From: Bacteroidaceae bacterium | Lineage (GTDB): Bacteria; Bacteroidota; Bacteroidia; Bacteroidales; Bacteroidaceae | Assembly: GCA_017560945.1 (NCBI GenBank) | Contig: JAFZDY010000037.1 | Span: 1-64,000, forward strand | Reading direction: 5' to 3' | DNA length: 64,000 nt | Part shown: positions 5,124 through 53,125 of the stretch, piece after piece | Layout: each line of letters starts with the position of its first letter | Numbering within the stretch: the first letter of the stretch is position 1 | Notes under the pieces: generated by a model | The model's input: the letters and a program-made list of their open reading frames with translations, nothing else | What the model was told of the DNA's origin: nothing | Database searches by the model: none | Made by a program: the position numbers and the translations under genes

Positions 5124-5547
5124 TTTGACTTGCGTACTTGATGAACGATAGCGAACTAATTTTAAATTTTGAGTCATCAGAATACTATCAGAATGTTCTG
5201 CTCATGACAGAACAAGAACAGGCAAAGAGGGGAACTTCTTTGCCTGTTCTCTTGCTTTTCAAATTAGAAGGGAGTAAACCTATTTCATGACTAAGTTAAA
5301 AACAGGTCAACGTGAATTAAAAATAAAGTTTAACTCAGTCAACCTCGACTATAAATAAGACTCAAAGTAGTCAACTAAAATCGTTAACATACAGAGTCTT
5401 CAAAATACTATCAATAAGTACTGCAATCACACTTAATAGATACTGCAGTACTACTTAATAAGTACTGTAGTACCATAAGGGAAGTACTCGAGTACCATAA
5501 GGCTGGTACTCGAGTACTCCTTAAACGAAATTTTTAGGAGTACTAAT
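5124..5547. repeat. Dispersed AGTACT 22-bp palindrome array, copy A (interrupted)
   Basis: Six consecutive 22-bp units start at 5416, 5438, 5460, 5482, 5504 and 5526. Units 2-5 contain a near-perfect palindrome of the form GTACTNNAGTAC; the last is a diverged AGGAGTACTAAT unit. A conserved tail (GCTGATTATCAG) follows. The conserved left flank seen in copy C lies here at 5124-5190, separated from the array by about 220 bp carrying the terminator. The array sits between convergent genes. Confidence 0.85.
5216..5259 (+). terminator. Strong intrinsic terminator after permease array
   Basis: A perfect 13-bp stem (5216-5228 with 5237-5249, GAACAGGCAAAGA and its complement) with an 8-base loop, followed by a T-rich stretch. 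It lies 170 bp past the last permease stop. A smaller hairpin (TGTTCTG/CAGAACA) precedes it. Confidence 0.75.
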
Positions 5548-5606
5548 TTTGGCTGATTATCAGCGAGTTCTTATAAATATATGCAAAAAGGGACGGGGGT
5601 AAATGT

Positions 5607-6800
5607 CTATTTGTTCTTGCCAGAGGGAAGAATGAGATTCAGTATTACACCCACCAATGCAGACAAACCTATGCCACCAATTGTGATGTTTCCAATCGTC
5701 ATCTCTGCACCACCTATGCCAAGGGTCAAAATGAGTGAAGCAATCACCAGATTGCGTGTGTTGCCCAAGTCGACCTTGTTCTTCACCAAATTATTGACTC
5801 CCACTGAAGCGATGGTACCAAACAACAACAACATGATACCTCCTAAAACTGCATTGGGAATGGTCTTGAGGAATGCACTGATTTTACCCAGCACTGAGAA
5901 CAAAATGCCAAACGTTGCAGCGATACGAATGACAACAGGAGCTGTTATCTTGGTCAACGAGATAGCACCTGTAACCTCGGAATAGGTAGTCACAGGAGGG
6001 CCACCAATGAGTGCGGCAGCTATACAAGCCAATCCGTCGCCCAACATGGTACGATGCAAACCTGGGTCTTTGACAAAGTCCTTACCTGCCACCTCGTTGA
6101 TTGCATATACATCGCCAATGTGTTCAATCACAGGTGCAATGGCTACGGGAATCATGAAGATGATGGCCTCCCAAGAAAACTCGGGACGAACAAATGCCGG
6201 CCATGCAAACCAGGGTGCATCCAATATGGGTTGAAAATCAATCAGACCCAGAACAGATGCCACAATGTAACCTACTACAATGCCTGCAAAGATAGGGATA
6301 AGGCGCAACAAGCCTTTTCCAAACAACGAAACGGCTACAGTGGTCAAGAGGGAAATGATGGCAAGTAACCAATTCTCCTTGGCCATGTCCACACCTGTAC
6401 CTGCCAACGACAAACCAATGAGCATGATGACTGGCCCTACCACAATAGGAGGGAAAAGGCGTGAGACAAACCCTACTCCGCGAAAACGAACCAATGCACT
6501 CATGACACCATACACTGCACCCACGGCTACCAAACCAGACAAGGTGCCTGGTAATCCGTATAACTCTGTAGCTTTCACAATGGGAGCGATGAACGCAAAA
6601 CTACTACCCAGGAATATGGGAACCATTCCTTTGGTAACAACATGGAAAATGAGGGTACCTATACCTGCAGTAAATAGGGCTACTGAGGGATCGAGTCCCA
6701 CCAAAAGTGGAACCAACACCGTGGCACCAAAAGCCACAAACAGGAACTGAGCACCCACCACGATTTTATGAGCAAAGCCCAACTTCTTATCTTCCTTCAT
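5607..6800 (-). CDS. uraA: Uracil/xanthine permease, NCS2 family
   Basis: A polytopic inner-membrane nucleobase:proton symporter of about 397 residues. The NCS2 family signature GGPPVTTYSEVTGAI corresponds to the substrate and proton region of UraA-type carriers. I chose the ATG at 6800 (MKEDKKLGFAHK) because a longer frame to 6860 would run back through the -7 box at 6832-6839. It is divergent from upp, so uptake and conversion of uracil to UMP are encoded back to back. Uracil is the likely substrate from this context; other nucleobases remain possible. Confidence 0.85.
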   Translation of the reverse strand: MKEDKKLGFAHKIVVGAQFLFVAFGATVLVPLLVGLDPSVALFTAGIGTLIFHVVTKGMVPIFLGSSFAFIAPIVKATELYGLPGTLSGLVAVGAVYGVMSALVRFRGVGFVSRLFPPIVVGPVIMLIGLSLAGTGVDMAKENWLLAIISLLTTVAVSLFGKGLLRLIPIFAGIVVGYIVASVLGLIDFQPILDAPWFAWPAFVRPEFSWEAIIFMIPVAIAPVIEHIGDVYAINEVAGKDFVKDPGLHRTMLGDGLACIAAALIGGPPVTTYSEVTGAISLTKITAPVVIRIAATFGILFSVLGKISAFLKTIPNAVLGGIMLLLFGTIASVGVNNLVKNKVDLGNTRNLVIASLILTLGIGGAEMTIGNITIGGIGLSALVGVILNLILPSGKNK

Positions 6801-6831
6801 AATTCTAATAGGAGTTAAATCAATACCACTG

Positions 6832-6839
6832 CAAAAATA
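6832..6839 (-). promoter_or_regulatory. -7 promoter box for uraA
   Basis: CAAAAATA on the plus strand reads TATTTTTG on the minus strand, matching TAnnTTTG, and lies 32 bases before the chosen start. Confidence 0.55.
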
Positions 6840-6921
6840 GGTATATTTACACAAAAACAACCATTTTTTGGAAAAAAAGGAAAAAGTAGGTGCAAAATTC
6901 CCGTGAAATCCAAATTATTGC

Positions 6922-6929
6922 TACTTTTG
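6922..6929 (+). promoter_or_regulatory. -7 promoter box for upp
   Basis: TACTTTTG matches the Bacteroidetes TAnnTTTG element and lies 32 bases upstream of the upp ATG, back to back with the uraA promoter. Confidence 0.6.
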
Positions 6930-6960
6930 CCAACAGAATGAAAAACTAAACTTTTATTGT

Positions 6961-7584
6961 ATGGCCTTACATATCATTAATCATCCGTTGGTGCTGCATA
7001 AGCTAAGTTCTATGCGCGACAAAACGACTTCTACCATGAAGTTCCGTAGTTTACTTGACGAAATATCATTATTGATGGGTTACGAGGTGACACGCGACCT
7101 CCCCCTGACGTACGAAGATATTGAAACCCCCTTGATGCCAATGAGTGCGCCCAAGATAGCTGGTAAAAAGGTAGTTATCGTACCCATCCTGCGAGCAGGA
7201 CTTGGCATGGTGAATGGCCTGACAACACTAATGCCCTCGGCACGCATCGGCCACATTGGTTTATATCGCGATGAAACGACTTGTAAACCTGTGTCCTACT
7301 ACTACAAGATGCCGGCAAACAAGGACAGACTGGTTATCCTCGTTGACCCCATGCTGGCCACAGGAGGAAGTGCGTGCGATGCCATCGCACATCTAAAAGA
7401 GGATGGATACAAACAGATAAGAATGATGTGCCTGGTAGCCTCTCCACAGGGAGTTAAAGCCGTAGAAGAGCAACATCCCGATGTGGACATTTTCCTGGCA
7501 TCCTTGGACGAAGGACTCAATGACAAGAACTACATTCTTCCTGGATTGGGAGATGCAGGCGACCGCATATTTGGAACTAAATAG
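6961..7584 (+). CDS. upp: Uracil phosphoribosyltransferase
   Basis: A 207-residue cytosolic enzyme converting uracil and PRPP to UMP in pyrimidine salvage. The PRPP-binding loop is visible as [15 protein letters not shown] (around residues 125-139), with the family block [12 protein letters not shown] upstream and a C-terminal [13 protein letters not shown] uracil-binding segment. The length is normal for UPRTase. It is divergent from the uracil permease gene and ends eight bases inside the convergent mntH. Confidence 0.93.
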
Positions 7585-8845
7585 CACTGAACAGTAGCAT
7601 CAGGTTCAACACTGTCACCAGCGCAGCTACGGCATAAAGTATCACCGTGGTGGAGTGGCTATTGACATATTGCCCCATTACCCGCTTGGACGAAGTGAGA
7701 CTTACTTGCAGAAATACGGTGATGGGGAGTTGGATGCTGAGCACCATCTGTGAAATGATAAGCCCATAGAAGGGGTCGCTGATAAAGAAGATGACCAACA
7801 GGGCTATACCCAAGGAAAGGAGGACACCCAGGCGCGAATGGGTGTCCTTTATATTATACGCCTCGCCAAAGAAGCCGGCAAATATGGAACCTGCCGCCAT
7901 ACCACTGGTGATGGTGGACGACACACCAGCCAACAACAAGGCAATGGCAAACACAATACCGGCAGCCCTACCCAACAAGGGGTCGAGCAGACTTTGCGCC
8001 TGAGCCAACTCGTCCACCTGTACACCATGTTGGAAGAAGGTAGCAGCAGCCAACACTATCATGGCACTGTTGATAGCCCACCCGATACTCATGGCCAACA
8101 AGGTATCGAAGAACTCGTACTTCAACGCCTTGCGGATGTGAGCGTCGTCCTGCAGATTTACCTGACGGCTCTGTATCACCTCGGAATGAAGGAAGAGGTT
8201 GTGAGGCATTACCACTGCTCCCAACACACTCATCACTATCAGCATACTGCCCTCGGGGATAGAGGGAACCACTGCCGAACGCAAGGCTACAGGCCAATCG
8301 ACATCTATCAGAAATATCTCGTAAAGGAACGAAAATCCAATGAGTGAAACAAAGGCAATGATACCCTTTTCCACCCGTCGATAACTGTTGGTAAAGAGCA
8401 TCACCGTTACAAAAGCGGCCGTCAGCAAGGCGCCCGCCGGAATGGGTACACCAAACAGCATCTGCAACGCTATGGCACCACCCAATATCTCGGCCAACGA
8501 TGTAGATATACTGGCCAATACTGCACTGCCCAGTACAGGAATGGATAACCACTTGGGAAGATACTTGTGTGCAGCCTCGGAGAGACAAAGTCCTGTAGCA
8601 ATACCCAAGTGAGCCACATTGTGCTGCAACAGTATCAACATCACTGTAGAAAGGGTGACCACCCACAAAAGTGTGTAGCCAAACATAGAGCCTGCCGCAA
8701 AATTACTGGCCCAGTTTCCTGGATCGATAAACCCAACCGTCACCAACAAACCAGGACCTATGTATTTCAAAAAGTCCATACCACCCAAGTAGCGGGGATG
8801 GTCCTTTCGCCTCAAATCACTAAAGAAATCTTTCACGCGTCCCAT
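7577..8845 (-). CDS. mntH: Nramp-family divalent metal (Mn2+/Fe2+) transporter
   Basis: A 422-residue multi-helix inner-membrane protein. The metal-binding motifs are intact: DPGN at residues 41-44 in helix 1 and MPHN at 213-216 in helix 6, with HSEV just after. This identifies a proton-coupled importer of Mn2+ and related ions. It overlaps the end of upp by eight bases in a convergent arrangement. No clear TAnnTTTG promoter was found upstream, and no Mn-sensing leader was recognised. Confidence 0.92.
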
Positions 8846-8890
8846 GCTTTCACTCTTCTACAATAACAAACTACTTTAGCAAAAAGTTAG

Positions 8891-8932
8891 GAGGGGTGTC
8901 AAAAATAAATGACATCATTTTGACACACCCTC
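8891..8932 (-). terminator. Intrinsic terminator after nadB
   Basis: A long hairpin, GAGGGGTGTC paired with GACACACCCTC with extra A/T pairs inside, lies between the nadB stop and the mntH start. On the minus strand it is followed by a T-rich stretch. Confidence 0.65.
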
Positions 8933-8950
8933 TAAAAACTATTTACACTT

Positions 8951-10516
8951 TTACTTCTTAGGATAATCGATACTAAAGTGCAAACCACGACTCTCCTTAC
9001 GCTCCATGGCCTGGCGGGTAATGAGGTAGCCGACATTGATCATATTACGCAACTCGCACAATTCGCGTGTAGCCTTACTACCCTTGAACAGGCGTTCGGT
9101 CTCTTCGTAAAGGATATCAAGACGGTTCCATGCACGAGTCAGGCGTGTGTTGCTACGCACAATACCCACGTAGGACTCCATAATCTGGTTTACCTCCTTC
9201 ATGCTCTGAGTGATGAGCACACGCTCTTCGGTACTGATGGTTCCCTCGTCGTTCCATTCGGGAATATCCTCGTTGAAATCGTATCGGTCGATGACACTGA
9301 GCGCATGCTGAGCAGCCGCATCGGCATAGACAATAGCCTCGATGAGCGAATTGCTTGCCAGACGGTTTCCGCCGTGCAAACCTGTGCACGAACATTCGCC
9401 AATGGCATACAAACGACGGATACTGCTCTGTCCGTCGAGATCGACCACAATACCACCACACAGGTAGTGGGCAGCGGGTGCTACAGGAATGTAGTCCTTG
9501 GTAATGTCAATGCCTATGCTCAAGCACTTCTTATAGATGTTAGGGAAGTGTTTCTTGGTCTCCTCGGCATCCTTGTGTGTGACATCGAGATAAACGTGCT
9601 CGTCACCGCGATGCTTCATCTCATTGTCGATGGCACGTGCCACAATGTCGCGTGGAGCAAGTGACAAACGGGGGTCGTACTTATGCATGAATTCCTTACC
9701 ATCCTTGGTACGGAGCACACCGCCATAGCCGCGCATGGCTTCGGTAATCAAGTAAGCAGGTCGGTCACCAGGATTGTATAGTGCCGTGGGATGGAATTGG
9801 ATGAACTCCATATCCTTCACCGCTCCCTTAGCACGATAAACCATGGCTATGCCATCGCCCGTAGCAACCAACGGATTGGTAGTCTGACGGTACACCGCCT
9901 CGCAACCTCCAGTGGCCATGATAGTCACCTTGGAGAGGAAGGTGTCCACTTCGCCAGTCTCCTCGTTCAACACATACGCACCATAGCAACGGATGCCCTG
10001 TGTATAGCGAGTAACGATGATGCCCATGTGGTGCTGAGTAATGATTTCCACCGCAAAGAAATTGGGGAACACGGTGATGTTGGGATGTGCCTTCACCGCT
10101 TCGATGAGCGAAGTCTGTATCTCGGCACCTGTATTGTCCTTGTGATGCAAAATGCGGAACTCGCTATGTCCACCCTCCTTATGAAGGTCAAAAGTCCCAT
10201 CGGGTTTCTTGTCAAAATCGACTCCCCACTTGATCAACTCCTCAATCTGGGAAGGGGCATTGCGAACCACCTTCTCCACCGCAGCCACATCGTTGATGTG
10301 ATCACCTGCAATGAGGGTGTCTTCGATATGCTTTTCGAAATTATCAACTGACAAGTCGGTCACCGAAGCAATACCTCCCTGAGCAAAATAGGTGTTGGCC
10401 TCTTCCAATCCGGCCTTACAAATGAGAGCCACCGTACCCTTGTGAGCCACTTTCAACGCAAAACTCATGCCTGCCAGGCCCGAGCCAATGACTAAGAAAT
10501 CATACTTTCTTACCAT
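8951..10516 (-). CDS. nadB: L-aspartate oxidase
   Basis: A 521-residue FAD flavoenzyme oxidising L-aspartate to iminoaspartate, the first step of de novo NAD synthesis. The N-terminal dinucleotide-binding motif is VIGSGLAGMSFALKVA. The substrate-binding HPTALY block and the GLHGGNRLASNSLIEA block near the FAD site are present, as in NadB and succinate dehydrogenase flavoproteins. NadB rather than SdhA is supported by the length and by the absence of partner subunits. Its pathway partner nadA is 29 kb away at 39235 rather than adjacent; nadC is not in the window. Confidence 0.93.
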   Translation of the reverse strand: MVRKYDFLVIGSGLAGMSFALKVAHKGTVALICKAGLEEANTYFAQGGIASVTDLSVDNFEKHIEDTLIAGDHINDVAAVEKVVRNAPSQIEELIKWGVDFDKKPDGTFDLHKEGGHSEFRILHHKDNTGAEIQTSLIEAVKAHPNITVFPNFFAVEIITQHHMGIIVTRYTQGIRCYGAYVLNEETGEVDTFLSKVTIMATGGCEAVYRQTTNPLVATGDGIAMVYRAKGAVKDMEFIQFHPTALYNPGDRPAYLITEAMRGYGGVLRTKDGKEFMHKYDPRLSLAPRDIVARAIDNEMKHRGDEHVYLDVTHKDAEETKKHFPNIYKKCLSIGIDITKDYIPVAPAAHYLCGGIVVDLDGQSSIRRLYAIGECSCTGLHGGNRLASNSLIEAIVYADAAAQHALSVIDRYDFNEDIPEWNDEGTISTEERVLITQSMKEVNQIMESYVGIVRSNTRLTRAWNRLDILYEETERLFKGSKATRELCELRNMINVGYLITRQAMERKESRGLHFSIDYPKK

Positions 10517-10548
10517 AGTATCTTTCCCTTTTGTTCTTAATTATGCCG

Positions 10549-10556
10549 CAAAACTA
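10549..10556 (-). promoter_or_regulatory. -7 promoter box for nadB
   Basis: CAAAACTA on the plus strand reads TAGTTTTG on the minus strand, 33 bases before the nadB ATG and divergent from the promoter at 10579. Confidence 0.55.
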
Positions 10557-10578
10557 CGAATAATCGATGAAATGGAGT

Positions 10579-10586
10579 ATCTTTGC
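10579..10586 (+). promoter_or_regulatory. -7 promoter box for the PH-like gene and dacB
   Basis: TATCTTTG matches TAnnTTTG. It covers an upstream in-frame ATG at 10583, which therefore cannot be the start, and argues for the ATG at 10604. Confidence 0.6.
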
Positions 10587-10603
10587 AGGCAAATTTCTTT
10601 ATT

Positions 10604-10996
10604 ATGAACCGAATATTTCATGCCCGTGTGCCTTGGTACACCATTCTTTTCTTGATTTTGCTCGCAGGAATCACCATATGGAGTTATTGGGAACGCCTCG
10701 GAGTGGTCGCTCTCATCAGCCTGTTGTGGATGGTGGTCCTCATCGAACGAACCATACATACCACCTACACCGTCACTACTGAGGGTACACTGGTGATACA
10801 TCGCGGACGTTTTTCCAAAGACATCGTCATACCCCTGGCAGAGATACGTCGTATCGAACTCATACGCAGTGCCCGCATAGGAACAGTTTGCATGAAAAGA
10901 TACCTGCTGGTACATTACGGAGAAGACCACACCCTGTCACTGATACCAACGAGAGAGGAAGAAATGGTAATGTACATCAAAGAAAAAAGGAAATGA
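10604..10996 (+). CDS. Small membrane protein with bacterial PH-like domain
   Basis: About 130 residues. Two hydrophobic segments in the first ~50 residues (VPWYTILFLILLAGITIW, then VVALISLLWMVVLI) are followed by a soluble part with the beta-rich pattern of bacterial PH domains (YTVTTEGTLVIHRGRF, then VIPLAEIRRIELIRS). Function unknown. The stop codon overlaps the next start as ATGA at 10993, so the two genes are probably translationally coupled. The assignment to a PH-like family is by pattern only. Confidence 0.7.
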   Translation: MNRIFHARVPWYTILFLILLAGITIWSYWERLGVVALISLLWMVVLIERTIHTTYTVTTEGTLVIHRGRFSKDIVIPLAEIRRIELIRSARIGTVCMKRYLLVHYGEDHTLSLIPTREEEMVMYIKEKRK

Positions 10997-12168: not shown

Positions 12169-12271
12169 TTTTGATTCTGAAAAAACTGAGATTTATTTCC
12201 TTTCCAACCACTTAGTAAAGAATACATTCCAAAAAAAGAGTCAATATTTTGGAATATTAACGGGATAGATG

Positions 12272-12279: not shown

Positions 12280-12283
12280 CGCC

Positions 12284-20515: not shown

Positions 20516-20523
20516 TATGTTTG
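20516..20523 (+). promoter_or_regulatory. -7 promoter box for the 20542 gene
   Basis: TATGTTTG matches TAnnTTTG. It overlaps a possible TTG start at 20521 and so favours the ATG at 20542. Confidence 0.55.
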
Positions 20524-20541
20524 CACAAAATATTTAGTTAT

Positions 20542-21390
20542 ATGGCACGTGAGATCATTATATATAACAAAAAGTTTATCAAACGCCCGTTAAACATTGA
20601 AGACATAATTGGTAGTGAAAATTATGGTTATGGCATTTCTGATGAACATTTCCGACTTGACATAGGTAAGACATTGGGAGGGCCTTTGATGGTTTTCGAC
20701 AAAAACAATATAGGCAGAGGAGTACATATTGTTGACTTAACGAACAAAAAGGAACTGCGTCTTTCTTTGTCTGTTCCTGCTACAGAAAACGATGTGAAGA
20801 TGCTATATAAATTAGCAAGCAGAATAGCATCATTATGGAATACAAAACATATTTTCGTAGAAAAGGAAAAAATTGATATTCAAGATGTTGACATATACAT
20901 TCAGCGCGATATTGATTTTAGTAAAAAACTACTAAAGGACGTAAATGAAACGTTAGAACTCGACAAAACGTTATTCCCTTGCGCTATGATTCCTATCACG
21001 ATCAGTATTGCCCAATTACAAGATTTTGCATCCGATTTCGATAGTTTCAGTACTTATTTACACAAGAAGCAAGAAATTGGTGCCTACTTTTCAACACCAT
21101 TGTTTAATCATGTGAACGATATATTTCGTGTGATATACGTAGTTTTCGACGATGGTCATATTATCTTGCCAAATACTCCTCAGATGACATTACATTTCGA
21201 AGGCAATAATGTAAATTGTGATCAATCTTTAGTAGTGTGCTCAAACTTGTTCCCCGATGAGAAATTGAGCAAAATCTCTTTCACTAATTTTATGGATAGA
21301 GTTCCTGCAGAAAAGAAATCAACATTCGACATTGCGCACACTCTTATCGAGCCAATGTCCATTGAAGAGTTGCAGTCAATATTTCGCTGA
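20542..21390 (+). CDS. Hypothetical protein, 282 residues
   Basis: Begins MAREIIIYNKKFIKRPLNIE with no signal peptide or membrane helix, so it is probably cytosolic. The N-terminal ~100 residues look like a compact beta-rich unit (RGVHIVDLTNKKELRLSLSV). The middle is mixed alpha/beta, and the C-terminus ends in IEPMSIEELQSIFR. The layout is reminiscent of the poorly known DUF4299 family, but I cannot confirm this. It lies just outside the tRNA-Lys repeat and is followed by palindrome array copy B. Function unknown. Confidence 0.7.
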   Translation: MAREIIIYNKKFIKRPLNIEDIIGSENYGYGISDEHFRLDIGKTLGGPLMVFDKNNIGRGVHIVDLTNKKELRLSLSVPATENDVKMLYKLASRIASLWNTKHIFVEKEKIDIQDVDIYIQRDIDFSKKLLKDVNETLELDKTLFPCAMIPITISIAQLQDFASDFDSFSTYLHKKQEIGAYFSTPLFNHVNDIFRVIYVVFDDGHIILPNTPQMTLHFEGNNVNCDQSLVVCSNLFPDEKLSKISFTNFMDRVPAEKKSTFDIAHTLIEPMSIEELQSIFR

Positions 21391-21489
21391 ATATCCACAC
21401 TTCCAATAAAATGGAAGTGTAAACCTTTTCAGTAGGGCTTTTGGAAAAGACAAACAAGTACTCCACCCAGCCATCAAAATCCTCTTAAT

Positions 21490-21645
21490 AAGTACTGGAA
21501 TCACACTTAACAGATACCGCAGTACTACATAAGAAGTACTGGAGTACTACATAGGAAATACTGCAGTACCAATTAGCTGGTACTGCAGTACTCCTTAATC
21601 GAAATTTTAAGGAGTACTAATTTTAGCTGATTATCAGCGAGTTTT
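21490..21645. repeat. Dispersed AGTACT 22-bp palindrome array, copy B
   Basis: Six 22-bp units starting at 21490, 21512, 21534, 21556, 21578 and 21600, followed by the conserved tail with GCTGATTATCAG. Each unit aligns with the same-numbered unit of copies A and C without gaps. Central bases of the palindromes differ (CG in A, GC here), but the arms GTACT/AGTAC are mostly kept. It lies in a 448-bp gap between convergent genes that holds nothing else recognisable. Confidence 0.85.
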
Positions 21646-21838: not shown

Positions 21839-23380
21839 TTACCGCTCTGCCCAATTCTCGCGGTCGAGATTGCGATAACCAATGGCTTCGGCAATATGCA
21901 TGGATTGTACAGTGGGGGAAGCATCCATATCGGCAATGGTACGCGCCACCTTCAATATACGGTCGTAGGCACGGGCTGAGAGATTGAGACGCTCCATGGC
22001 ACTACGCAACAACTGAAGCCCATTTTCATCGGGAGTCGCATATTCAGCAAGCATCTTTGGAGTCATTTGAGCATTGCAATGTATGCCTGGCACATTAGCA
22101 AAACGTTGTTCCTGTATCTTGCGTGCGGCTATCACTCGTTGACGGATAACTTCGCTGGATTCACTGGGTCGGGCCTCGGAAAGTTTTTCAAAAGGTACAG
22201 GTACGATCTCAACTTGTATATCTATACGGTCGAGTAAAGGGCCTGATATGCGGTTGAGGTATTTCTGAACTTGTCCAGGATTGCATACGCAAGCCTTTGT
22301 GGGGTGATTGTAATATCCACATGGGCAAGGATTCATACTGGCGATGAGCATGAATGAAGCGGGATACTCCACCGTATATTTGGCTCGTGAGATGCTGATA
22401 GTACGGTCTTCCAAGGGCTGACGGAGCATCTCCAAAACGGTGCGATTAAACTCGGGTAATTCGTCGGCAAACAGTACACCATTGTGCGCTAAACTGATTT
22501 CACCAGGTTGTGGATTGCTGCCTCCTCCAACAAGGGCTACTGATGAGATGGTGTGGTGAGGACTACGAAAAGGACGGTGAGCAATCAGGGATGTATTTTT
22601 CCCAAGTTTACCAGCCACAGAATGAATCTGTGTAGTCTCCAAACTTTCGGCCAGTGACAATGGAGGAAGAATAGATGGTAATCGCTTGGCCATCATAGAC
22701 TTTCCACTTCCTGGAGGGCCTATCATAATCAGATTGTGTCCGCCAGCGGCAGCCACCTCAAGGGCACGTTTCACACTCTCCTGCCCTTTCACTTCGGCAA
22801 AATCGTATTCAAAATCGTTTTGCTGAGCATAAAATTCTTCGCGTGTATTTACCTCTGTAACCTCCAACTCACGCTCGTCATTCATAAATTCAATGACTTC
22901 CTTCAAGGTTTCCACTCCATACACTTTCAGTCGGTTTACAACGGCAGCTTCGCGGACATTCTCTTTGGGGACAATCAATCCCTCGAATCCCTGTTCACGA
23001 GCGCGTATGGCAATGGGAAGAGCACCTTTCACCGGTTGTAGAGTTCCGTCCAAGCTAAGTTCTCCAATCATCATGAATCGACTCAACTTGTCAGTTGAAA
23101 CGGTCCCATTGGCCGCCATAATACCTATAGCTAACGGAAGGTCGTAAGCAGAACCTTCCTTTCGAATGTCGGCTGGTGCCATGTTGATGATAATTTGTGC
23201 TACGGGGAATTTGTAACCATTCACCTGAAGAGCCGATAAGATTCGCTCGTGACTCTCCTTGACAGCATTATCGGGAAGTCCAACGAGGAAATATTTTATT
23301 CCTCGTGAGAGATTTACCTCGATTGTGATGGTGGTGGCTTCAATGCCTTGAACAGCCGCACTGAAAACTTTGACAAGCAT
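21839..23380 (-). CDS. YifB/ComM-type Mg chelatase-like AAA+ ATPase
   Basis: A 513-residue protein of the ComM/YifB family. The N-terminal domain is of the Lon-substrate-binding/ChlI type (~1-180), with LPDNAVKESHERILSAL. The AAA+ core has Walker A GPPGSGKS (~221-228) and FADELPEF in the Walker B region. A four-cysteine cluster occurs in PCPCGYYNHPTKACVCNPG, and a C-terminal Mg-chelatase helical domain follows. Characterised members are hexameric helicases promoting branch migration during natural transformation; the role here is inferred from that. Confidence 0.9.
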   Translation of the reverse strand: MLVKVFSAAVQGIEATTITIEVNLSRGIKYFLVGLPDNAVKESHERILSALQVNGYKFPVAQIIINMAPADIRKEGSAYDLPLAIGIMAANGTVSTDKLSRFMMIGELSLDGTLQPVKGALPIAIRAREQGFEGLIVPKENVREAAVVNRLKVYGVETLKEVIEFMNDERELEVTEVNTREEFYAQQNDFEYDFAEVKGQESVKRALEVAAAGGHNLIMIGPPGSGKSMMAKRLPSILPPLSLAESLETTQIHSVAGKLGKNTSLIAHRPFRSPHHTISSVALVGGGSNPQPGEISLAHNGVLFADELPEFNRTVLEMLRQPLEDRTISISRAKYTVEYPASFMLIASMNPCPCGYYNHPTKACVCNPGQVQKYLNRISGPLLDRIDIQVEIVPVPFEKLSEARPSESSEVIRQRVIAARKIQEQRFANVPGIHCNAQMTPKMLAEYATPDENGLQLLRSAMERLNLSARAYDRILKVARTIADMDASPTVQSMHIAEAIGYRNLDRENWAER

Positions 23381-41061: not shown

Positions 41062-41104
41062 AAAAGTCATCGGTCTTACTTAAATGATCGGTGACTTTTT
41101 CTTT
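41062..41104 (+). terminator. Intrinsic terminator after the barrel gene
   Basis: AAAAGTCATCGG pairs with CGGTGACTTTT (one mismatch or bulge), followed by TTTTTCTTTT. Confidence 0.65.
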
Positions 41105-41111
41105 TATTTAT

Positions 41112-41264
41112 AGGTGAGTAACCCTTAACCCTAAGATGAGTAACCCTTAACCCTAAGATGAGCAACCCTTAACCCTAAGATGAGCAACCCTTAACCCTAA
41201 GATGAGCAACCCTTATCCCTAAGATGAGCAACCCTTATCCCTAAGATGAGTAATCCTTATCCTA
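41112..41264. repeat. 22-bp tandem array with CCCTAA-type units (7 copies)
   Basis: Seven head-to-tail units of exactly 22 bp starting at 41112, 41134, 41156, 41178, 41200, 41222 and 41244; unit form AGATGAGCAACCCTTAACCCTA. Variation is limited to three positions: GTAA/GCAA, TTAACCC/TTATCCC, and the first and last units. Each unit holds the small dyad CTTA-4 bases-TAAG. It lies between an outer-membrane protein gene and mutS, upstream of the mutS promoter. No coding meaning, since 22 is not a multiple of 3. Confidence 0.92.
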
Positions 41265-41373
41265 TGCTTCTTCATACTTAATGTCAGTGCTTGGGTTAAA
41301 ATAACACTCTGCAAAAAAAATATATTAGCTTATTTTTTTGTATAATCATTATCGTATATTCTCATTTTTTTCT

Positions 41374-44031: not shown

Positions 44032-44079
44032 GTTATTATGAGTCTTTAATTTACTTATTAATAAACTTATCACATCTAT

Positions 44080-45539: not shown

Positions 45540-45548
45540 AATGAAAAA

Positions 45549-47861
45549 TTATTTAATCATCACTATTTTCGTTACAACTCCTTCCTGTCCATTTTCATTT
45601 GTAGCCAAAACATGATATACACCCGAAGCTACCCGATTTCCTTTACTATTTCTTCCATTCCATGAAAAAGATCCACCTGTTGACATACCTTCGCATATAA
45701 TGCTACCGAATGAATCTGTTATTTTCACTTGAGAATTCATCATAAGTCCATCTATACGTATATATCCTTGGTAGTCAGGTCTTACAGGGTTAGGATAAGC
45801 ACGTACATTACTTTCTTCAAACGAAGGTTGTGCTTCGGTTGCATCACTTTGATAAGCCACAAGTCCTTTACTTGTACCGATGTATACCATTCCTGTGACC
45901 TCATCAGTAGCAATACTACGTACTTCATCAGATGGTAAAGGGCTATTTTCAGTTGTAAAGTGGTGGATGGCTTCTAAACCATCTGCAGAAATTAAGTAAA
46001 TACCATTCTTTTCTGTTCCAATCCACTTTCGATTCGCACCATCTATGGCTATGCTGAGTACTGTAACCCCTTCAAGTAAATAATCTGCAAGATTAGTACC
46101 ATCGTTGCGTGGTACTTTTACTTGGGTTACTGTAACAGTACCATTTTGTGCAGCCATCAGTTGTGTAGGATTTGTGATGAGCCATGTGCCATTGGTGGTA
46201 CCTAACCATATAACACCCTCTTTATCCTCTATGGCACAATGTACCTGTTGATGTTCCAATAAAGTTCCATCCTGATTATGGAAACGATTGATGAAAAGGC
46301 TCTTATCATCAGCCGTATTTTCTAAAGTTTCATTGGTATTGAGTATGAATACACCATTATCATTATGGTGCGGAGTAACTGCCCACATCCATCCTCTTAC
46401 GTCAAAAAATGTATTGCGTAGAGTTGATTTTTTTGAAAAATTACTATTAAAAAGTTTTATCCAACGCTTATCATGTGTAAGGATTGATATTGTACTATCT
46501 GCTTTAGCGCATAAACACCAAAGATTCTTATTTTTATCATAGGCTAATCCGTTTACGCGAATAATATTGGGATATCGATAATCACTACTAATGCTGCTAT
46601 TTAAAGGAGTGTGTAAAGTTACTAACTCTCCATTCAGAAATTCATATACTCCCTCTCCTGCAGATGAAGCATAAACATGATTGTCATTATTAGGGTCGAC
46701 TGCTAAAGAGGTGATATCTTGGTATAGTTTTCCACTAATATTTGTTATACCTTCTTCTTGAAATATTTGCCAATTATTATTAGAATTAAGAACTTGAATA
46801 GTTCCAGGTAAAGAATATCTGTCTAAATAAATACCACCTCCGCAAGTATACAATTTACCATTGTGCATAAACATTTGGTAAAAGAGGTTGCGACGAGGTG
46901 CATTCAATTCTATATGATTTGTAGTAAGTTGCATTTCATTTTCAACCAGCTTATATCCTGTGAGTTTTTCTTCAGTGCTGGCAATCCAATATGTTGAATT
47001 TCCGTAAGCAATATCTATCATGCCTTTCGGAATACTAATCTCATTGTATTCCTTGGGTGAATTGAATACATAAAGTTTACCATCAGCATTTCCTGCAAAT
47101 AGTTTACCATTTACGTTTTTCAAAAAGGTAAAATTATCTTTTACCACCAGTTCATAAGATTTTTTTTCTGGATCTACGGTGAGCAGTGCATATCCCGGTA
47201 TACAGGCATATACGACACCCTTTGTAGTTTTCAACAATGTGAAGGTATTTGTCATCATGCGCGTCCACTTGTCCTTTTCCAACAAATTGTCAGTCAATTT
47301 ACCATAGTACAATCCATCTCCTGGGGCGGTGGCTGCCATTATGTAATCACCTATTACAGATGTGGCCACAATTTTCTTTTCCAATGTATAGGTGGTACTG
47401 ATTACTCGCTTGGCAATATCGAGTACCACAATACCGAAATTGGTGGCCATATAAGCTTTACTACCTTCTACATTTATATTGTTTATTGTCTTATCCGTTA
47501 CATTGCTATTCTTCAGGTCAGTTATGTTATAAACCTCTTCCCTTTCATTCATCAAATCAATGTTACCATTTTCATAGACAATGAGCAATTTTTTTTGTGC
47601 AGGACATGTAGCCAAGTGTGTGATATTTATGTCACTCATGGGATATACAAGGTCGAATGTTTGTATATCCTCGTCTTCAGGGTCGTATGAAATAAGGGAT
47701 CCCTCGGAAACGGCATACACCTTTCCGTTGAAAAATACACAAGTGGAGGTTTTATCATATGCCATGAAAGCCTGCCATTCGCCTAAAGGCAGGCGTGCTT
47801 GCAATTGGCATTTCCATCCGAAAGCAAAAATAATAAGTAGGATAAGAGTGAGTCGTTTCAT
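45549..47861 (-). CDS. PorZ-like beta-propeller protein (type IX secretion associated)
   Basis: 770 residues. After the signal peptide, LPLGEWQAFMAYDKTSTCVF and VYAVSEGSLISYDPEDEDIQ open a series of propeller blades running to ~680, including two-component-regulator-propeller-type repeats (EDKEGVIWLGTTNGTWLITN, IATDEVTGMVYIGTSKGLVA). The C-terminal ~90 residues are a FlgD-like/sorting domain (AYPNPVRPDYQGYIRI to GVVTKIVMIK). This matches the PorZ architecture, a surface component that presents anionic lipopolysaccharide in type IX secretion. No other secretion gene is in the window, so assignment to a functioning system is inference. Confidence 0.78.
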   Translation of the reverse strand: MKRLTLILLIIFAFGWKCQLQARLPLGEWQAFMAYDKTSTCVFFNGKVYAVSEGSLISYDPEDEDIQTFDLVYPMSDINITHLATCPAQKKLLIVYENGNIDLMNEREEVYNITDLKNSNVTDKTINNINVEGSKAYMATNFGIVVLDIAKRVISTTYTLEKKIVATSVIGDYIMAATAPGDGLYYGKLTDNLLEKDKWTRMMTNTFTLLKTTKGVVYACIPGYALLTVDPEKKSYELVVKDNFTFLKNVNGKLFAGNADGKLYVFNSPKEYNEISIPKGMIDIAYGNSTYWIASTEEKLTGYKLVENEMQLTTNHIELNAPRRNLFYQMFMHNGKLYTCGGGIYLDRYSLPGTIQVLNSNNNWQIFQEEGITNISGKLYQDITSLAVDPNNDNHVYASSAGEGVYEFLNGELVTLHTPLNSSISSDYRYPNIIRVNGLAYDKNKNLWCLCAKADSTISILTHDKRWIKLFNSNFSKKSTLRNTFFDVRGWMWAVTPHHNDNGVFILNTNETLENTADDKSLFINRFHNQDGTLLEHQQVHCAIEDKEGVIWLGTTNGTWLITNPTQLMAAQNGTVTVTQVKVPRNDGTNLADYLLEGVTVLSIAIDGANRKWIGTEKNGIYLISADGLEAIHHFTTENSPLPSDEVRSIATDEVTGMVYIGTSKGLVAYQSDATEAQPSFEESNVRAYPNPVRPDYQGYIRIDGLMMNSQVKITDSFGSIICEGMSTGGSFSWNGRNSKGNRVASGVYHVLATNENGQEGVVTKIVMIK

Positions 47862-47870
47862 ACTGATAGT

Positions 47871-48452
47871 TCATCGATTTTTCAGGAATTCCACCAGTTT
47901 TTCCACTGCTCGTGCACGATGACTTATACGGTTCTTTACCTCATCACCCAAGTGTGCAAAAGAGTGGTCGTAACCATCGGGACGGAAGATGGGGTCATAG
48001 CCAAAACCTTCTCCCTCTTCTCGTTCTTCCAAAATGGTACCAGTGACTATACCATCAAAGAGGTATTCCTTTCCTTCCTTTATTAACGCAATAACAGTAC
48101 GAAATTGTGCACGACGGTCACTTTTTCCTTTCAATTCGGTCAAAAGTTTTTGCATATTGGCTTCCGAATCGTGTCCTGGTCCTGCATAACGTGCAGAATA
48201 TACACCTGGTGCTCCATTGAGTGCATCCACTTCCAACCCCGTGTCATCTGCAAAACAATCGACACCATAGCGTTCATAGATGTATCGTGCCTTCATCAGC
48301 GCGTTACCTTCGAGTGTATCTGCTGTTTCGGGTATATCGTCGGTACAACCTATGTCACGTAAGTTCTTCAAGGAGAATTTTCCGCCCAACATGGCGTTTA
48401 CCTCTTGCAGTTTATGGGGGTTATTGGTTACAAATATCATTTCGTTTACCAT
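47871..48452 (-). CDS. rdgB: XTP/dITP (non-canonical purine NTP) pyrophosphatase
   Basis: A 193-residue HAM1/RdgB enzyme removing xanthine and hypoxanthine nucleotides. Blocks: [72 protein letters not shown] and [11 protein letters not shown]. Two in-frame ATGs are possible, 48452 or 48440 ([10 protein letters not shown]); the second fits the family start better. It lies in the leuS-yitT-rdgB-PorZ run. Confidence 0.92.
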
Positions 48453-48530
48453 TTATAATTTACCATTTACCATTCGTTTCATCATGTACAAATTGAGTTG
48501 TACAATGTACGTGGTAAATGGTACCTACAT

Positions 48531-49439
48531 TCATTTCTTTTTCTTGCTTTTTACCTTTATTTGGTCAAATCCTTCTCCATATACACCCACCACATTGCTC
48601 TGTGATATGAAGGCGTTGGGATCTATATCCTTCACCAAACGGAAAATGTGGATGGCTTCGCTCTTCTTTGCCAAAATGCAGAGAACCTTTATGGGTTGTT
48701 TGCTATAGAAACCTGTACCATCGAGTACAGTCACACCACGTTTCACATCAGCCATTACCGCTTCGCCTATCTCCTCATATTTTTTGCTGAATATGAGGAA
48801 CTGTACACTCTGTCTGGCACTGTTTACAATGTAGTCGATGGCCACACTGATGATGATAAGGGTGACAAATCCGAATACCACACGTCGCCAATCTTGGAAA
48901 ATAAAGTAGCACGACGAAATGATAATGATATCACACACCATTATCATACGTCCGAAAGTGACTGCTTTATACTTGTTTACAATGGCGGCTATGATGTCCG
49001 TACCGCCTGTACTTCCTCCTACAATGAAGACCACCGCAATACCCGCTCCGCAGAAGGTGGCACCTATGACACAGGCCATAAAGTCCTGTCCTGGTCCGAT
49101 GATTTGCAAGAATTCACCCGTCTGTGGGTCCTTCATCATCTCTTGGAATATGTCGAGAAAGAAGGTTAGTGTTGCTACTGAGAAGATGGTCTTCAGGCAA
49201 AATTTAAAGCCCAATACTTTCAGGGCAACGATCAAAAATGCTGTATTGATGACGAAGTAGGAATATTGCATCTCAATGCCTGTAGCATAGTAAATGATAG
49301 CCGAGATACCAGTTACTCCTCCGGTAGTAATTTGATAAGGGAGCAGAAACAGAGCCCATCCAAGCGCATAAGCCATCAATCCAAATGCGATGATGGTATA
49401 GTCTTTGGCTTCGCGCCAAAGGTTTGAGGAATTATTCAT
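48531..49439 (-). CDS. YitT family membrane protein
   Basis: 302 residues with five to six N-terminal helices (YTIIAFGLMAYALGWALFLL, VTGISAIIYYATGIEMQYSY and others, to about residue 185). A cytoplasmic DUF2179-type domain follows (QFLIFSKKYEEIGEAVMADV, GVTVLDGTGFYSKQPIKVL). The whole is the standard YitT layout. The substrate is not established for the family. It is separated from leuS by a terminator hairpin. Confidence 0.88.
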   Translation of the reverse strand: MNNSSNLWREAKDYTIIAFGLMAYALGWALFLLPYQITTGGVTGISAIIYYATGIEMQYSYFVINTAFLIVALKVLGFKFCLKTIFSVATLTFFLDIFQEMMKDPQTGEFLQIIGPGQDFMACVIGATFCGAGIAVVFIVGGSTGGTDIIAAIVNKYKAVTFGRMIMVCDIIIISSCYFIFQDWRRVVFGFVTLIIISVAIDYIVNSARQSVQFLIFSKKYEEIGEAVMADVKRGVTVLDGTGFYSKQPIKVLCILAKKSEAIHIFRLVKDIDPNAFISQSNVVGVYGEGFDQIKVKSKKKK

Positions 49440-49460
49440 AATTTTTAGTTGACGAGTTGA

Positions 49461-49522
49461 CTAAAAAAACAAGTTGACGAGGAGATTGTGCCACCATGGC
49501 CTTGTCGCCTCCTCAACTTGTT
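49461..49522 (-). terminator. Intrinsic terminator after leuS
   Basis: AACAAGTTGACGAGGAG (49468-49484) pairs with CTCCTCAACTTGTT (49509-49522) apart from a 3-base bulge; on the minus strand a run of seven T follows. Confidence 0.75.
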
Positions 49523-49537
49523 CTTGTCAATCAAATT

Positions 49538-52372
49538 TTATAGTACGATATTTACAATCTTTTTCGGTACGATGATAACCTTTTTCGGAGTCTTTCCTTC
49601 GATCCACTTCTGACTCTGTTCGTCGGCCATCACGGTACTTTCAATGGTTGCATTGTCAGCATCAGCAGCAAATTCCATGGTGAAGCGTGCCTTTCCGTTG
49701 AACGAGATGGTGTACTTTACAGTGTCCTCCACCAGGTAACTTTCGTTGCACACGGGCCATTGGGCATCGCACACACTGCCCTCGCCCTTCAGCATCTCCC
49801 ACAACTCCTCTGCCAAGTGAGGGGCAAATGGTGCAATCAGCACAGTCAACAGACGCAACACCTCTGTCGAGCGGCACTTGAGTGAAGTCAGTTCGTTCAC
49901 GCAAATCATGAATGCACTGATGCTGGTGTTGTACGAGAAGGTCTCGATGTCTCCTGTCACCTTCTTGATGAGCTTATGAATGCTCTTCAGTTCCTCCTTG
50001 GTGGCTGCAACGTCGGTAGGCAGGAACTCGTCAGTGCGGCTGTAGAACAATCCCCACAATTTCTTCAGGAAGCGGTGTACGCCATCGATACCGTTGGTGT
50101 CCCATGGCTTGCTCTGTTCTACAGGACCGAGGAACATTTCGTACATGCGCAGTGTGTCGGCACCGTATTTCTCTACAATCATGTCGGGGTTCACCACGTT
50201 GAACATCGACTTTGACATCTTCTCTACGGCCCATCCACAGATGTATTTACCATCTTCAAGGATGAATTCAGCATTGTTATATTCGGGACGCCAAGCCTTG
50301 AACGCTTCTACGTCGAGCACATCGGCGCTCACGATGTTCACATCCACGTGTAGCGGAGTCACATCGTACTGATCTTTCAAACCAAGTGACACGAAGGTGT
50401 TTGTATCCTTGATTCGATATACGAAGTTGCTTCGTCCCTGAATCATACCCTGGTTCACCAGTTTCTGGAAGGGTTCGTCCTTCACACTTACGCCCAAGTC
50501 ATAGAGGAACTTGTTCCAGAAACGGCTATATATCAAGTGGCCTGTAGCGTGTTCAGTACCACCTACGTAGAGGTCCACGTTCTGCCAATACTCGGCAGCC
50601 TTTTCGCTCAACAAGGCATTGTTGTTCTGGGGATCCATGTAGCGCAGATAGTAGGCACTCGAGCCTGCAAAGCCAGGCATTGTGTTCAGTTCGAGGGGGA
50701 ACACGTTCACATTGTCAATGAGTGTATTGTCCACTACTTCACCCTTCTGTACATCCCATGCCCAACGTGTGGCATTGCCCAACGGTGGTTCGCCTGTCTC
50801 TGTGGGTAAGAACTTGCTTACTTCGGGTAATTCGAGGGGTAATTTACTACTGTCAATCATGTAGGGCATTCCGTCCTTGTAATATACGGGGAAAGGTTCG
50901 CCCCAATAGCGTTGGCGGCTGAAGATGGCGTCGCGCAAGCGGAAGTTCACCTTCACACGACCTAATCCGTGTTCTTTCACATACTTCTTGGTAGCGGCAA
51001 TGGCTTCCTTGATGGTAAGACCGTTCAGTACAAGGTCGCAGTAAGGGGTTGCACCCTCTTTGGGAGAATTGGTTACGATACCTTCCTTGGCATCGAAGCT
51101 CTCTTCGTTCACGTCGCAACCCTCTACCAAGGGGATGATGGTGAGGTCAAAGTGTTTGGCAAAGGCATAGTCGCGGCTATCGTGGGCAGGCACAGCCATG
51201 ATGGCTCCTGTTCCATATCCGGCCAACACGTAATCGCTGATCCAGATGGGCACTGCCTCACCTGTAAATGGATTGATGGCATACGAACCGCTGAACACGC
51301 CTGTCACCTTACGGTCGGCAATGCGTTCGCGTTCGGTACGTTTCTTGGTGCGGTCGAGATAAGCCTCCACTTCAGCTTTCTGTTCATCGGTAGTCAATTG
51401 GGGAACCAATTCACTTTCAGGAGCCAACACCATGAAGGTCACACCAAACATAGTATCTGCACGGGTGGTGAAGATGGTGAACTCCATGTCCGAGTCTTTC
51501 ACCTTGAACTGCACCTCGGCACCCTCTGAGCGGCCAATCCAGTTCTTCTGTGTCTCCTTCAGTGATTCTGTCCAGTCTATTCCGTCCAATCCATCCAACA
51601 GGCGCTGGGCGTATGCACTCACGCGCAAGCACCATTGGCGCATCTTCTTCTGTACCACGGGGTGTCCACCACGTTCGCTCACACCATCTACCACTTCATC
51701 ATTGGCAAGCACAGTTCCCAAAGCAGGGCACCAGTTTACCATGGTCTCTCCCAGGTAAGCGATGCGGTAGTTCATCAGGATTTCCTGCTGTTCCTTTTCA
51801 TTCTTGGCATTCCACTCTTCAGCGGTGAAAGTGAGTTCCTCGCCTTGTGCTACGTCCAGTCCTTCGGTACCCTTCTGTGTAAAGTGTTCCACCAATTTTG
51901 TGATGGGCACAGCCTTTTGGCAGGCGTTGCAATAGAAGTGTTCAAACATTTGCTGGAAGGCCCACTGAGTCCAGTGGTAATAGCCCGGTTCGCATGTGCG
52001 CACCTCGCGGTCCCAGTCGAAGCAGAATCCAATCTTATCCAACTGTTCGCGGTAGCGGTTGATGTTGGCCTTGGTGGTTACATCGGGGTGTTGGCCTGTC
52101 TGTATGGCATACTGCTCAGCGGGCAATCCGTAAGCATCGTAGCCCATGGGGTTCAGCACGTTGAATCCTTGCAAGCGCTTGTAGCGGGCATAGATGTCGC
52201 TGGCGATGTATCCCAGCGGATGTCCCACGTGAAGTCCCGCACCCGAGGGGTAGGGGAACATATTGAGTACGTAGAATTTCTTCTTACTTTCGTCTTCGGT
52301 CACCTTGTAGGTTTTCTTTTCCACCCACTGGTTTTGCCATTTTTTCTCTATTTCTCTAAAGTTATATTCCAT
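49538..52372 (-). CDS. leuS: Leucyl-tRNA synthetase
   Basis: A 944-residue class Ia synthetase. The HIGH-type motif is HVGHPLGY (~48-55) within [19 protein letters not shown], and KMSKS is intact in [10 protein letters not shown] (~700). The editing (CP1) domain is present with [19 protein letters not shown] and [16 protein letters not shown]; the C-terminal anticodon domain ends [18 protein letters not shown]. The length is at the upper end of the usual range. It has its own promoter box at 52425. Confidence 0.96.
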
Positions 52373-52424
52373 AGCGGATATAGTTAGTTTTTAATGATTA
52401 TACTTTTGTACTTTCAACAGGGTG

Positions 52425-52432
52425 CAAAGATA
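52425..52432 (-). promoter_or_regulatory. -7 promoter box for leuS
   Basis: CAAAGATA on the plus strand reads TATCTTTG on the minus strand, giving a ~45-base leader. No T-box or other leader structure was recognised. Confidence 0.55.
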
Positions 52433-52590
52433 GGTAAAATCTTCCGATTACAAGCCTGTCGTGTTCAAGAATTTATCACAATCATCCCATCCTCCATCAG
52501 TTTGTCCTCCATGCGACCAAAAGATAGGGATGTTGTCACCCTTGCCCAGTGACGATGTAGCCATACGATATGGGCAAGTCTCCCTCCTCC

Positions 52591-52724
52591 AAAGGGCATT
52601 TTCCCCACCCCTGCAAAGGCACATTTTTTATGTCTTTATGCACTCCATTTTTCTCCCCTGCCTGAGAAATATTTTTCCCTTGTCTGAGAAAAATATTTTC
52701 CTGACATAAGAAAAAACGCATCTA
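52591..52724. repeat. Loose 22-25 bp periodic array
   Basis: Two clear 22-bp units (TGCCTGAGAAATATTTTTCC at 52659 and TGTCTGAGAAAAATATTTTC at 52681) are flanked by weaker copies sharing a CATTTT/ATTTTTCCC core at about 24-bp steps back to 52591. It is C- and T-rich on the plus strand. It lies in an 881-bp gap (52373-53253) without genes that also holds palindrome array copy C. Confidence 0.45.
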
Positions 52725-52897
52725 CCCATCCCCCTCCATTTTCACTAAAAACAGGTAAAAATCCAATTTTTCAAAAAACGAGTGTATGAAAATCATACAA
52801 TTTTGCCCTTAAAAATACGATTTTTGTTTTTTTTCGATTTTTTTTGCACGTTTCAATAATTTTGTGAGGCAAAGTAGCAGGCAATCGTTCCCATAAA

Positions 52898-53125
52898 CTT
52901 TGACTTGCGCAGCTTGATGAACGATAGCGAACTAATTTTAAATTTTGAGTCATCAAAATACTATCAATAAGTACTGCAATCACACTTAATAGATACTGCA
53001 GTACTACTTAATAAGTACTGTAGTACCATAAGGGAAGTACTCGAGTACCAATAGGCTGGTACTGGAGTACTCCCTAAACGGAATTTTTAGGAGTACTAAT
53101 TTTTGCTGATTATCAGTGATTTTCG
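52898..53125. repeat. Dispersed AGTACT 22-bp palindrome array, copy C (uninterrupted)
   Basis: A contiguous element. The left flank (52898-52968) is the same as 5124-5190 of copy A, then six 22-bp units start at 52969, 52991, 53013, 53035, 53057 and 53079, then the tail TGCTGATTATCAG. It is nearly identical to copy A unit by unit and more distant from copy B. It lies downstream of the minus-strand gene ending at 53254 and far upstream of leuS. Confidence 0.87.

Follow-up and report, generated by a model that had tools for sequence, protein, structure and literature searches.

Dispersed arrays of palindromic boxes at 22-bp pitch in gut Bacteroidota as putative recognition arrays of DUF6078-family proteins

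What is a row of palindromes that recurs between the genes of one chromosome at a strict pitch of 22 bp, and which molecule reads it? This question is raised by a 64,000-nucleotide stretch of DNA from a Bacteroidaceae bacterium (positions 1 to 64,000 of the forward strand of contig JAFZDY010000037.1, assembly GCA_017560945.1; hereafter, the window), which carries three copies of such an element. From genomic evidence, we lean somewhat beyond even towards the view that the element is a recognition array of a DUF6078-family protein, read as DNA. A first-pass annotation of the window had proposed a dispersed element with its dyads in fixed phase, bound cooperatively by a dimeric protein. Dispersal and phasing are supported by the results below, and a sequence-specific partner appears likely, with DUF6078 as the candidate suggested by genomics. 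That link had been missed because the genes concerned lie outside the window.

The three copies were confirmed on the window sequence, together with the 22-bp pitch, the unit-to-unit register, the GTACT/AGTAC arms and the variable central dinucleotide ascribed to them, and the element proved to be real and larger than described. In every copy, GTACT-NN-AGTAC dyads repeat every 22 bp and a short tail palindrome comes after them; in the first pair of boxes, the second box is degenerate (AATCAC). Three Phocaeicola-type genomes were used for close reading (G362, G386 and G236). They yielded 45 elements, the 45th being truncated by a contig end, and each of the 44 uncut elements consisted of exactly eight AGTACT boxes spanning 88 bp. 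Steps between boxes alternate between 14 and 8 bp, which is equivalent to eight 11-bp half-sites of alternating direction. Likewise, all 12 elements in 1.595 Mb of Phocaeicola plebeius were eight-box arrays, accompanied by one chance-like three-box run. The six units originally counted thus hold for the window copies but are lineage-specific, since eight boxes are found in the three Phocaeicola-type genomes and six, nine or twelve at other loci (in G224, G407 and the window's genome, respectively). Exceptions to the spacing were a split row in G400 and one unit in G054 that was longer by eye.

In the oriented alignment, the boxes carried 1.88 bits per position, the 8-bp linkers 0.81, the central dinucleotides 0.31 and the flanks about 0.2; the outer bases were C on the left in 44 and G on the right in 39 of the 44 oriented elements. 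Outside the P. plebeius arrays, AGTACT-NN-AGTACT occurred never exactly and once with one mismatch, while control spacings gave no exact occurrence and 0–5 with one mismatch. When 20-nt dyads repeating every 22 bp were sought without regard to their sequence, shuffled DNA gave no hits (three shuffles at cut-off 20, five at cut-off 19); at both cut-offs this blind scan flagged the second window copy, the first and third falling below.

Clustering of neighbouring genes identified DUF6078, a family known only as Pfam PF19555 and of unknown function, as the sole gene at array ends across genera. When 260-bp flanks were subjected to a blind test for dyads at 22-bp pitch, which scores the best of all offsets and handles shuffles identically, 48 of 84 DUF6078 3' flanks exceeded the 99th percentile of the shuffles, compared with 3 of 85 5' flanks. 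Ordinary genes passed with 76 of 1436 3' flanks, 18 of the 76 being AGTACT arrays. By DUF6078 group, the passing 3' flanks were 26 of 33 for type-A-like genes and 12 of 22 and 10 of 29 for the others. Nine DUF6078 genes from separate collections contributed seven further arrays at 0 of 200 shuffles, including those of two Parabacteroides distasonis genes with different codes; the two flanks that failed were those from MT835733 (12/200) and Treponema saccharophilum (174/200). Arrays start 2–81 bp after most type-A-like stop codons, and in G224 the open frame runs into the array.

Two DUF6078 surveys covered genomes picked by hand (31 and 19), with carriers recognised by sequence patterns. Among 30 DUF6078 genes from the 31 genomes, the eight with an AGTACT-type array formed one clade (99/99) spanning two genera; stop codons in a frameshifted copy in this tree (L305) were rendered as X. 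Of the 16 AGTACT carriers chosen, 8 had a type-A gene followed by an array, compared with none of the 15 non-carriers. In the family sample, a profile of the type-A clade matched 31 of 399 genomes at E 1e-40. Arrays were found in 28 of the 31 genomes with a type-A-like DUF6078 and in 75 of the 368 others, a co-occurrence that is partly built in because the array beside the gene itself counts.

Not only the presence of an array but also its box sequence varied with the adjoining gene. Type-A-like flanks held altered, yet dyad-symmetric boxes (AGTCCT/AGGACT, AGTGCG/CGCACT, AGTTTT/AAAACT and GGTGTT/GACACT), and other DUF6078 clades had codes of their own (TCTGCCA/TGGCAGA, TGTGCAT/ATGCACA and TGTGNCA/TGNCACA), so that lineage-specific box sequences beyond the window retain dyad symmetry. 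A lack of arrays beside other DUF6078 copies holds only for AGTACT boxes. The clade-to-box analysis used 89 of 94 loci, leaving out L305 (frameshift), L316 (internal stop), L377 and L383 (near contig ends) and L418 (Treponema); L317 was read with X at stops. Protein identity predicted array similarity with a Mantel r of 0.71 (0 of 2000 permutations; 50 loci, score at least 17), and with 0.61 for pairs under 60% DUF6078 protein identity. For nine pairs of paralogs from the same genome, array similarity was at most 0.18 in eight and 0.42 in one. Among the loci compared, box sequence was thus shown to follow the DUF6078 clade rather than the genome.

Code dispersal was examined for the AGTACT, AGTGCG and AGTTTT/AGTCCT types. 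In several genomes, AGTACT copies elsewhere share the code of the DUF6078-side array, and, among the matches listed, the same was observed for AGTGCG-type copies in G177 and AGTTTT/AGTCCT-type copies in G372. A generic three-unit pattern matched 103 of 399 genomes; its reversed control matched 18, with 1–8 hits among the matches listed. In 418 kb of the window's genome, blind scanning with a cut-off of 19, which missed some known AGTACT copies, returned three AGTACT arrays and a TGGCAG array by a second DUF6078 gene, and a motif search over the same 418 kb added one more possible dispersed copy of TGCC type. In P. plebeius, an other-code array (TTAAATGTACTTGCATTTCA type) at about position 6815 of L250 (C3:26815) is not beside DUF6078 and is flanked by glycoside-hydrolase-like and cytochrome-bd-oxidase-like genes (names by eye).

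Dispersed copies appear to be maintained where they stand. In five orthologous pairs between G236 and G362 or G386, differences amounted to 3/240 in boxes, 44/160 in linkers and 8/30 in central dinucleotides (boxes versus linkers, p 3e-16), with 52/190 spacer sites differing altogether; two further G236 pairs, left uncounted, had 1/48 box differences each. In eleven pairs between G362 and G386, the corresponding values were 5/528, 10/352 and 7/66 (boxes versus linkers, p 0.06; boxes versus dinucleotides, p 8e-5), these pairs having been chosen at no more than 10 differences plus a similarity and flank filter, with two further orthologs (7 and 9 differences) dropped. The counts show the boxes, and not the spacers, to be under strong purifying selection at fixed chromosomal sites. 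A phased DNA-binding array is expected to have just such spacers, free in sequence and fixed in length, between boxes fixed in sequence. An origin of box conservation in quasi-palindrome correction is disfavoured by reasoning only, linkers and central dinucleotides not being palindromic.

As for their placement, 43 scored Phocaeicola elements lay in 22 convergent, 18 codirectional and 3 divergent gaps, against a background, taken from P. plebeius alone, of 45, 180 and 97 gaps of at least 130 bp. The convergent excess was significant per genome (p 0.002, 0.002 and 0.0002), although the context counts include orthologous copies. In the 18 codirectional cases, the median distance was 33.5 bp from the upstream stop versus 117.5 bp to the next start. 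Neighbouring genes were varied, mostly of housekeeping type, and a terminator-like hairpin preceded the element at 20 of 62 facing gene ends. Array sites seem to be fairly stable: of 23 sites in G386, 14 could be compared through one or both flanks with the fetched part of P. plebeius, and 11 of these were occupied there (9 of 12 with both flanks and two with one). Of the other three among the 14, one was clearly empty and two were rearranged or replaced. At least 5 of 8 sites in G236 have orthologs in G362 or G386.

The distribution of the element extends well beyond the window. In the window's genome (G000; 2.35 Mb, 57 contigs, 82% complete), blastn located 16 distinct places (L001–L016), two of them cut by contig ends; there, contigs C53 and C29 begin within an array (L012 and L015), so the assembly seems to break at arrays and copy number may be underestimated. 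Copy number of the AGTACT type associated with DUF6078 type A ranged between 8 and at least 23 across four closely examined genomes. In a named species collection, 46 stretches fitted a strict pattern, 42 of them labelled Bacteroidaceae, Prevotellaceae, Bacteroidales or member genera. Carriers included P. plebeius, Bacteroides mediterraneensis, a Paraprevotella and many herbivore gut assemblies, while L054, L062, L069, L084 and the sole viral-contig match, L094, look like chance ATACT-type matches. The pattern matched 17 of 399 genomes in the family sample (reversed control, 0) and 14 of 61 in the P. plebeius genus, where one genome reached 73 hits and the control gave none. An order-wide scan (2 of 247, namely the own genome and one hit with three mismatches) had suggested restriction to one family, which is contradicted by an AGTACT array behind DUF6078 in Parabacteroides distasonis. 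Arms and phasing were conserved in the relatives searched, and no known transposon end was recognised; neither outcome that the first-pass annotation had named as refuting was thus observed. By eye, several arrays in the window's genus (L001, L006, L031, L038, L041 and L043) are bordered by another dispersed repeat, of GTTGACTACTTT...GTTGACTGAGTT type. On contig C16 of G407, one array and its DUF6078-side flank occur in duplicate, at 1667 and 20375 (L051 and L061), 18.7 kb apart.

Taken as a recognition array, the element would be bound as double-stranded DNA by several DUF6078 molecules side by side, both at the array of the protein's own gene and at dispersed arrays, and might serve at gene ends in transcript termination, supercoiling or chromosome structure. 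One type, AGTACT, is dispersed, preferentially behind genes and between convergent genes, and would in this be comparable to REPINs (paired repetitive extragenic palindromic, REP, sequences). More broadly, we consider it somewhat more probable than not that a protein-array class of gut Bacteroidota, hitherto unrecognised, is made up of DUF6078 proteins and their arrays, with a private code per paralog, several per genome and some copied to many gene ends under selection, analogous to REPINs and their RAYTs (REP-associated tyrosine transposases) but built on a protein that is not a transposase.

Several observations weigh against this interpretation. Over a third of DUF6078 3' flanks (36/84) pass no array test, and in just half of the chosen AGTACT carriers is a type-A gene followed by an array. 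At E 1e-3, DUF6078 had no match in array-bearing G026 (99% complete), G200, G285 and G079, nor was one found in array-bearing G386, G401, G260 and G413; the absence from G386 may be an assembly gap, as the element at the site that holds the DUF6078 gene in P. plebeius is there placed at the edge of a contig. In addition, G026, G300 and G308 carry arrays of other codes, found with the generic pattern, together with a match to a Y1 transposase, which may be the partner of those arrays. Gene and array being neighbours, the clade-to-box match partly reflects common descent. One exact AGTACT-N8-AGTACT occurrence lies outside the P. plebeius arrays. An AlphaFold2 model of DUF6078 (predicted local distance difference test score 89.5) had no match in the PDB at E 0.001, so DNA binding is inferred here rather than recognised from a solved fold. 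Compensatory changes in the arms would also fit a hairpin of RNA or single-stranded DNA, and L013, L100 and L074 fold mainly as a single long hairpin, as do, by eye, arrays of G307 and G170.

Searches for a function of DUF6078 by other routes gave little. NCBIfam returned no family for two DUF6078 proteins at E 0.1, and PHROGs and PADLOC gave only weak hits (E 0.078 and 0.01). In viral contigs, 74 stretches matched a type-A peptide pattern and none was confirmed. The open-access literature yielded no description of such arrays or of DUF6078 function.

The strongest competitor is an element acting at the RNA level, in which transcribed rows of hairpins in 3' untranslated regions would stabilise or end transcripts and DUF6078 would regulate by binding RNA, its own mRNA included. 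We judge this unlikely. Arrays hug stop codons and lie on the 3' side of DUF6078 genes, as noted above; minimum free energy z-scores ranged from -4.4 to -9.4 in eight sequences, and several units have UUCG-type loops. Complementary changes in the arms at positions 4–7 across 52 arrays (z 3.8–7.2, one unit per array), which we counted towards the recognition array, come from arrays found through an AGT..ACT motif, only positions 4–9 being tested for that reason. Across lineages, the arms covary strongly in both possible pairing registers, and covariation alone therefore cannot decide between DNA and RNA. For linkers, pairing within or between units of 22 distinct Phocaeicola elements showed no clear excess, with some cells below shuffles; a pairing signal in mixed genomes at l1:l10, a position outside that 22-element test, corresponds to the outer base of the boxes themselves (AGTACC/GGTACT). 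RNA pairing would predict an excess of G-T over A-C on the sense strand. The counts (62 versus 47, 58 versus 50 and 46 versus 35) all lean that way and none is significant, with 50 arrays selected for high dyad score and Phocaeicola counts that include orthologous copies; we counted the lack of a significant excess in favour of DNA, and the structured RNA that had been offered as an alternative in the first-pass annotation is neither favoured nor excluded by this test. A single RNA consensus fold was rejected, since for 15 of the genome's own copies only 2 of 32 pairs had double changes and the RNAalifold covariation term was +0.33. Moreover, the terminator-like hairpins ahead of the element place some copies probably beyond the transcript, and a conserved stem sequence with nearly free loop centres is unusual for RNA hairpin recognition. 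The conserved stem with nearly free centres and the 22-bp pitch seen across the codes read favour double-stranded DNA, the pitch, however, having been built into the detector.

Slightly less probable still in our estimation is a miniature mobile element like a REPIN, with arrays as non-autonomous copies mobilised by DUF6078 (or by Y1 enzymes for some codes) and kept by mobility, not by any use to the host. It would account for genomes that have both a resident gene next to its array and dispersed copies, which is the arrangement of REP-RAYT systems (REPtrons), for the copies in G177 and G372 that match the array by their own DUF6078 gene among the matches listed, for one pair of occupied and empty sites (G386 versus G362, 156 bp) and for the Y1 matches in G026, G300 and G308. 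Against it stand the shared occupancy of sites between G386 and P. plebeius, the orthology of most G236 sites and the selection on boxes in place; further, no terminal repeats or target duplication were recognised, and no His-hydrophobic-His (HUH) motif was seen by eye in the DUF6078 alignment. A minisatellite, or the remnant of a known miniature inverted-repeat transposable element such as BrickBuilt, without partner protein, resembles the arrays in having tandem units of similar length, intergenic and in 19 copies in one strain (PMC4596501), but is very improbable, given a unit number fixed in three genomes without slippage, dyad boxes under selection and no IS5-type inverted ends seen.

Returning to the window, all three copies read on the forward strand, copies 2 and 3 being ungapped repeats of copy 1 with 84% and 95% identity. 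Copy 1 (array 5416–5547, tail 5552–5563, entire conserved stretch 5394–5569) occupies a convergent gap, faced by the 3' ends of an FtsX/MacB permease gene (2662–5049, forward) and a xanthine/uracil permease gene (5607–6860, reverse), with a terminator-like hairpin ahead of it at about 5210–5259 (by eye). Copy 2 (array 21490–21621, tail 21626–21637, entire stretch 21468–21643) is likewise faced by the 3' ends of a DUF4299 gene (20521–21390, forward) and a ChlI/Mg-chelatase-like gene (21839–23380, reverse). Copy 3 (array 52969–53100, tail 53105–53116, entire stretch 52947–53122) lies downstream of a gene at 53254–54264 (reverse) and upstream of the leucyl-tRNA synthetase gene (49538–52372, reverse), so that the location downstream of genes first given for all copies applies to most of them and copy 3 is upstream of a gene as well. 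The tail palindrome GCTGATTATCAG, also reported at the outset, is present in the window copies as a trait of the window's genus, and Phocaeicola flanks carry no conserved tail. In a search of the whole window at gathering score, Rfam recognised only a tRNA, leaving the arrays without a match; the plasmid collection contained no DNA similar to them.

Positions 5137–5201, after the FtsX/MacB gene, repeat copy 3 from its left flank into its first bases (52913–52977), have no array behind them and are a partial or lost copy. Positions 1–5064 hold tandem, similar FtsX/MacB-type permease genes whose 3' ends are repeated. Four of the genome's own arrays follow genes of this type; an association with these permeases was discarded, as it chiefly reflects paralogs within the genome, to which a looser cut-off added a single case from another genus (L085). 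A tandem 22-bp unit (AGATGAGCAACCCTTAACCCTA type) at 41090–41287 shares the 22-bp pitch and has no evident dyad. Direct and inverted repeats of 54–57 bp surround a gene (54310–54366, 55841–55897 and 54420–54473) and are unrelated in sequence to the arrays.

With these arrays, a protein family of unknown function from common gut bacteria gains a concrete, testable target, and DUF6078 is tied to a DNA design whose order is preserved at gene ends by strong selection. If the proposal is correct, the diverged pairs of protein and box would be a natural set for working out recognition.

Two known systems share single features with the arrays. MetJ binds met boxes, palindromes spaced 8 bp apart that are occupied by several dimers and form short runs in promoters; the 8-bp spacing recurs in the arrays, which differ in lying behind genes with almost no isolated sites. 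Type III toxin-antitoxin loci such as ToxIN place a small protein gene beside a tandem structured repeat, as DUF6078 loci do, but their antitoxin repeats are upstream and undispersed, whereas the arrays are dispersed and 3' of the gene.

BrickBuilt elements of Porphyromonas gingivalis are 23-nt direct repeats numbering 1 to 22.8, strain-variable in length, with a leader and a tail bearing IS5-type inverted ends and putative target duplications (PMC4596501). Both are intergenic Bacteroidales elements of about 20 copies with short tandem units and predicted stem-loops. The arrays differ in their 22-bp pitch and in the constant eight boxes of the three Phocaeicola-type genomes (six, nine or twelve elsewhere). 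Beyond the boxes, only the C/G pair recurs (the next pair is complementary in 4 of 22 elements versus 10.3 expected), and the single empty site showed no clear target duplication. The arrays are not BrickBuilt.

The closest resemblance is to REP sequences and their mosaic combinations (bacterial interspersed mosaic elements), which are palindromes scattered through intergenic regions, chiefly those between codirectional or convergent genes (PMC3733652), and to REPIN-RAYT systems, tied to a resident gene that is vertically inherited in single copy (PMC8049555). The arrays are likewise intergenic and biased towards convergent and codirectional gaps, and, by analogy, DUF6078 is a resident gene beside its cognate palindromes. 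Unlike REP-RAYT loci, they lie almost only 3' of the gene, which is no Y1 transposase, and are fixed rows of boxes under selection in place. Y1 transposases (IS200/IS605-type, PF01797) were absent from the window's genome and from all 14 AGTACT array carriers of the P. plebeius genus, where G026, G300 and G308 are among the 6 of 61 genomes with a PF01797 match, and were rejected as partners of the AGTACT type for this reason. The GTAG (GTRG) foot of REP hairpins is not conserved in the arrays, because it arises at the foot of a unit only when the variable spacer dinucleotide is GT. The layout is REPtron-like, but the AGTACT type lacks both defining traits, the Y1 enzyme and the GTAG foot; if our reading holds, DUF6078 and its arrays would represent a second instance, built independently, in which a resident protein is accompanied by a dispersed population of palindromes.

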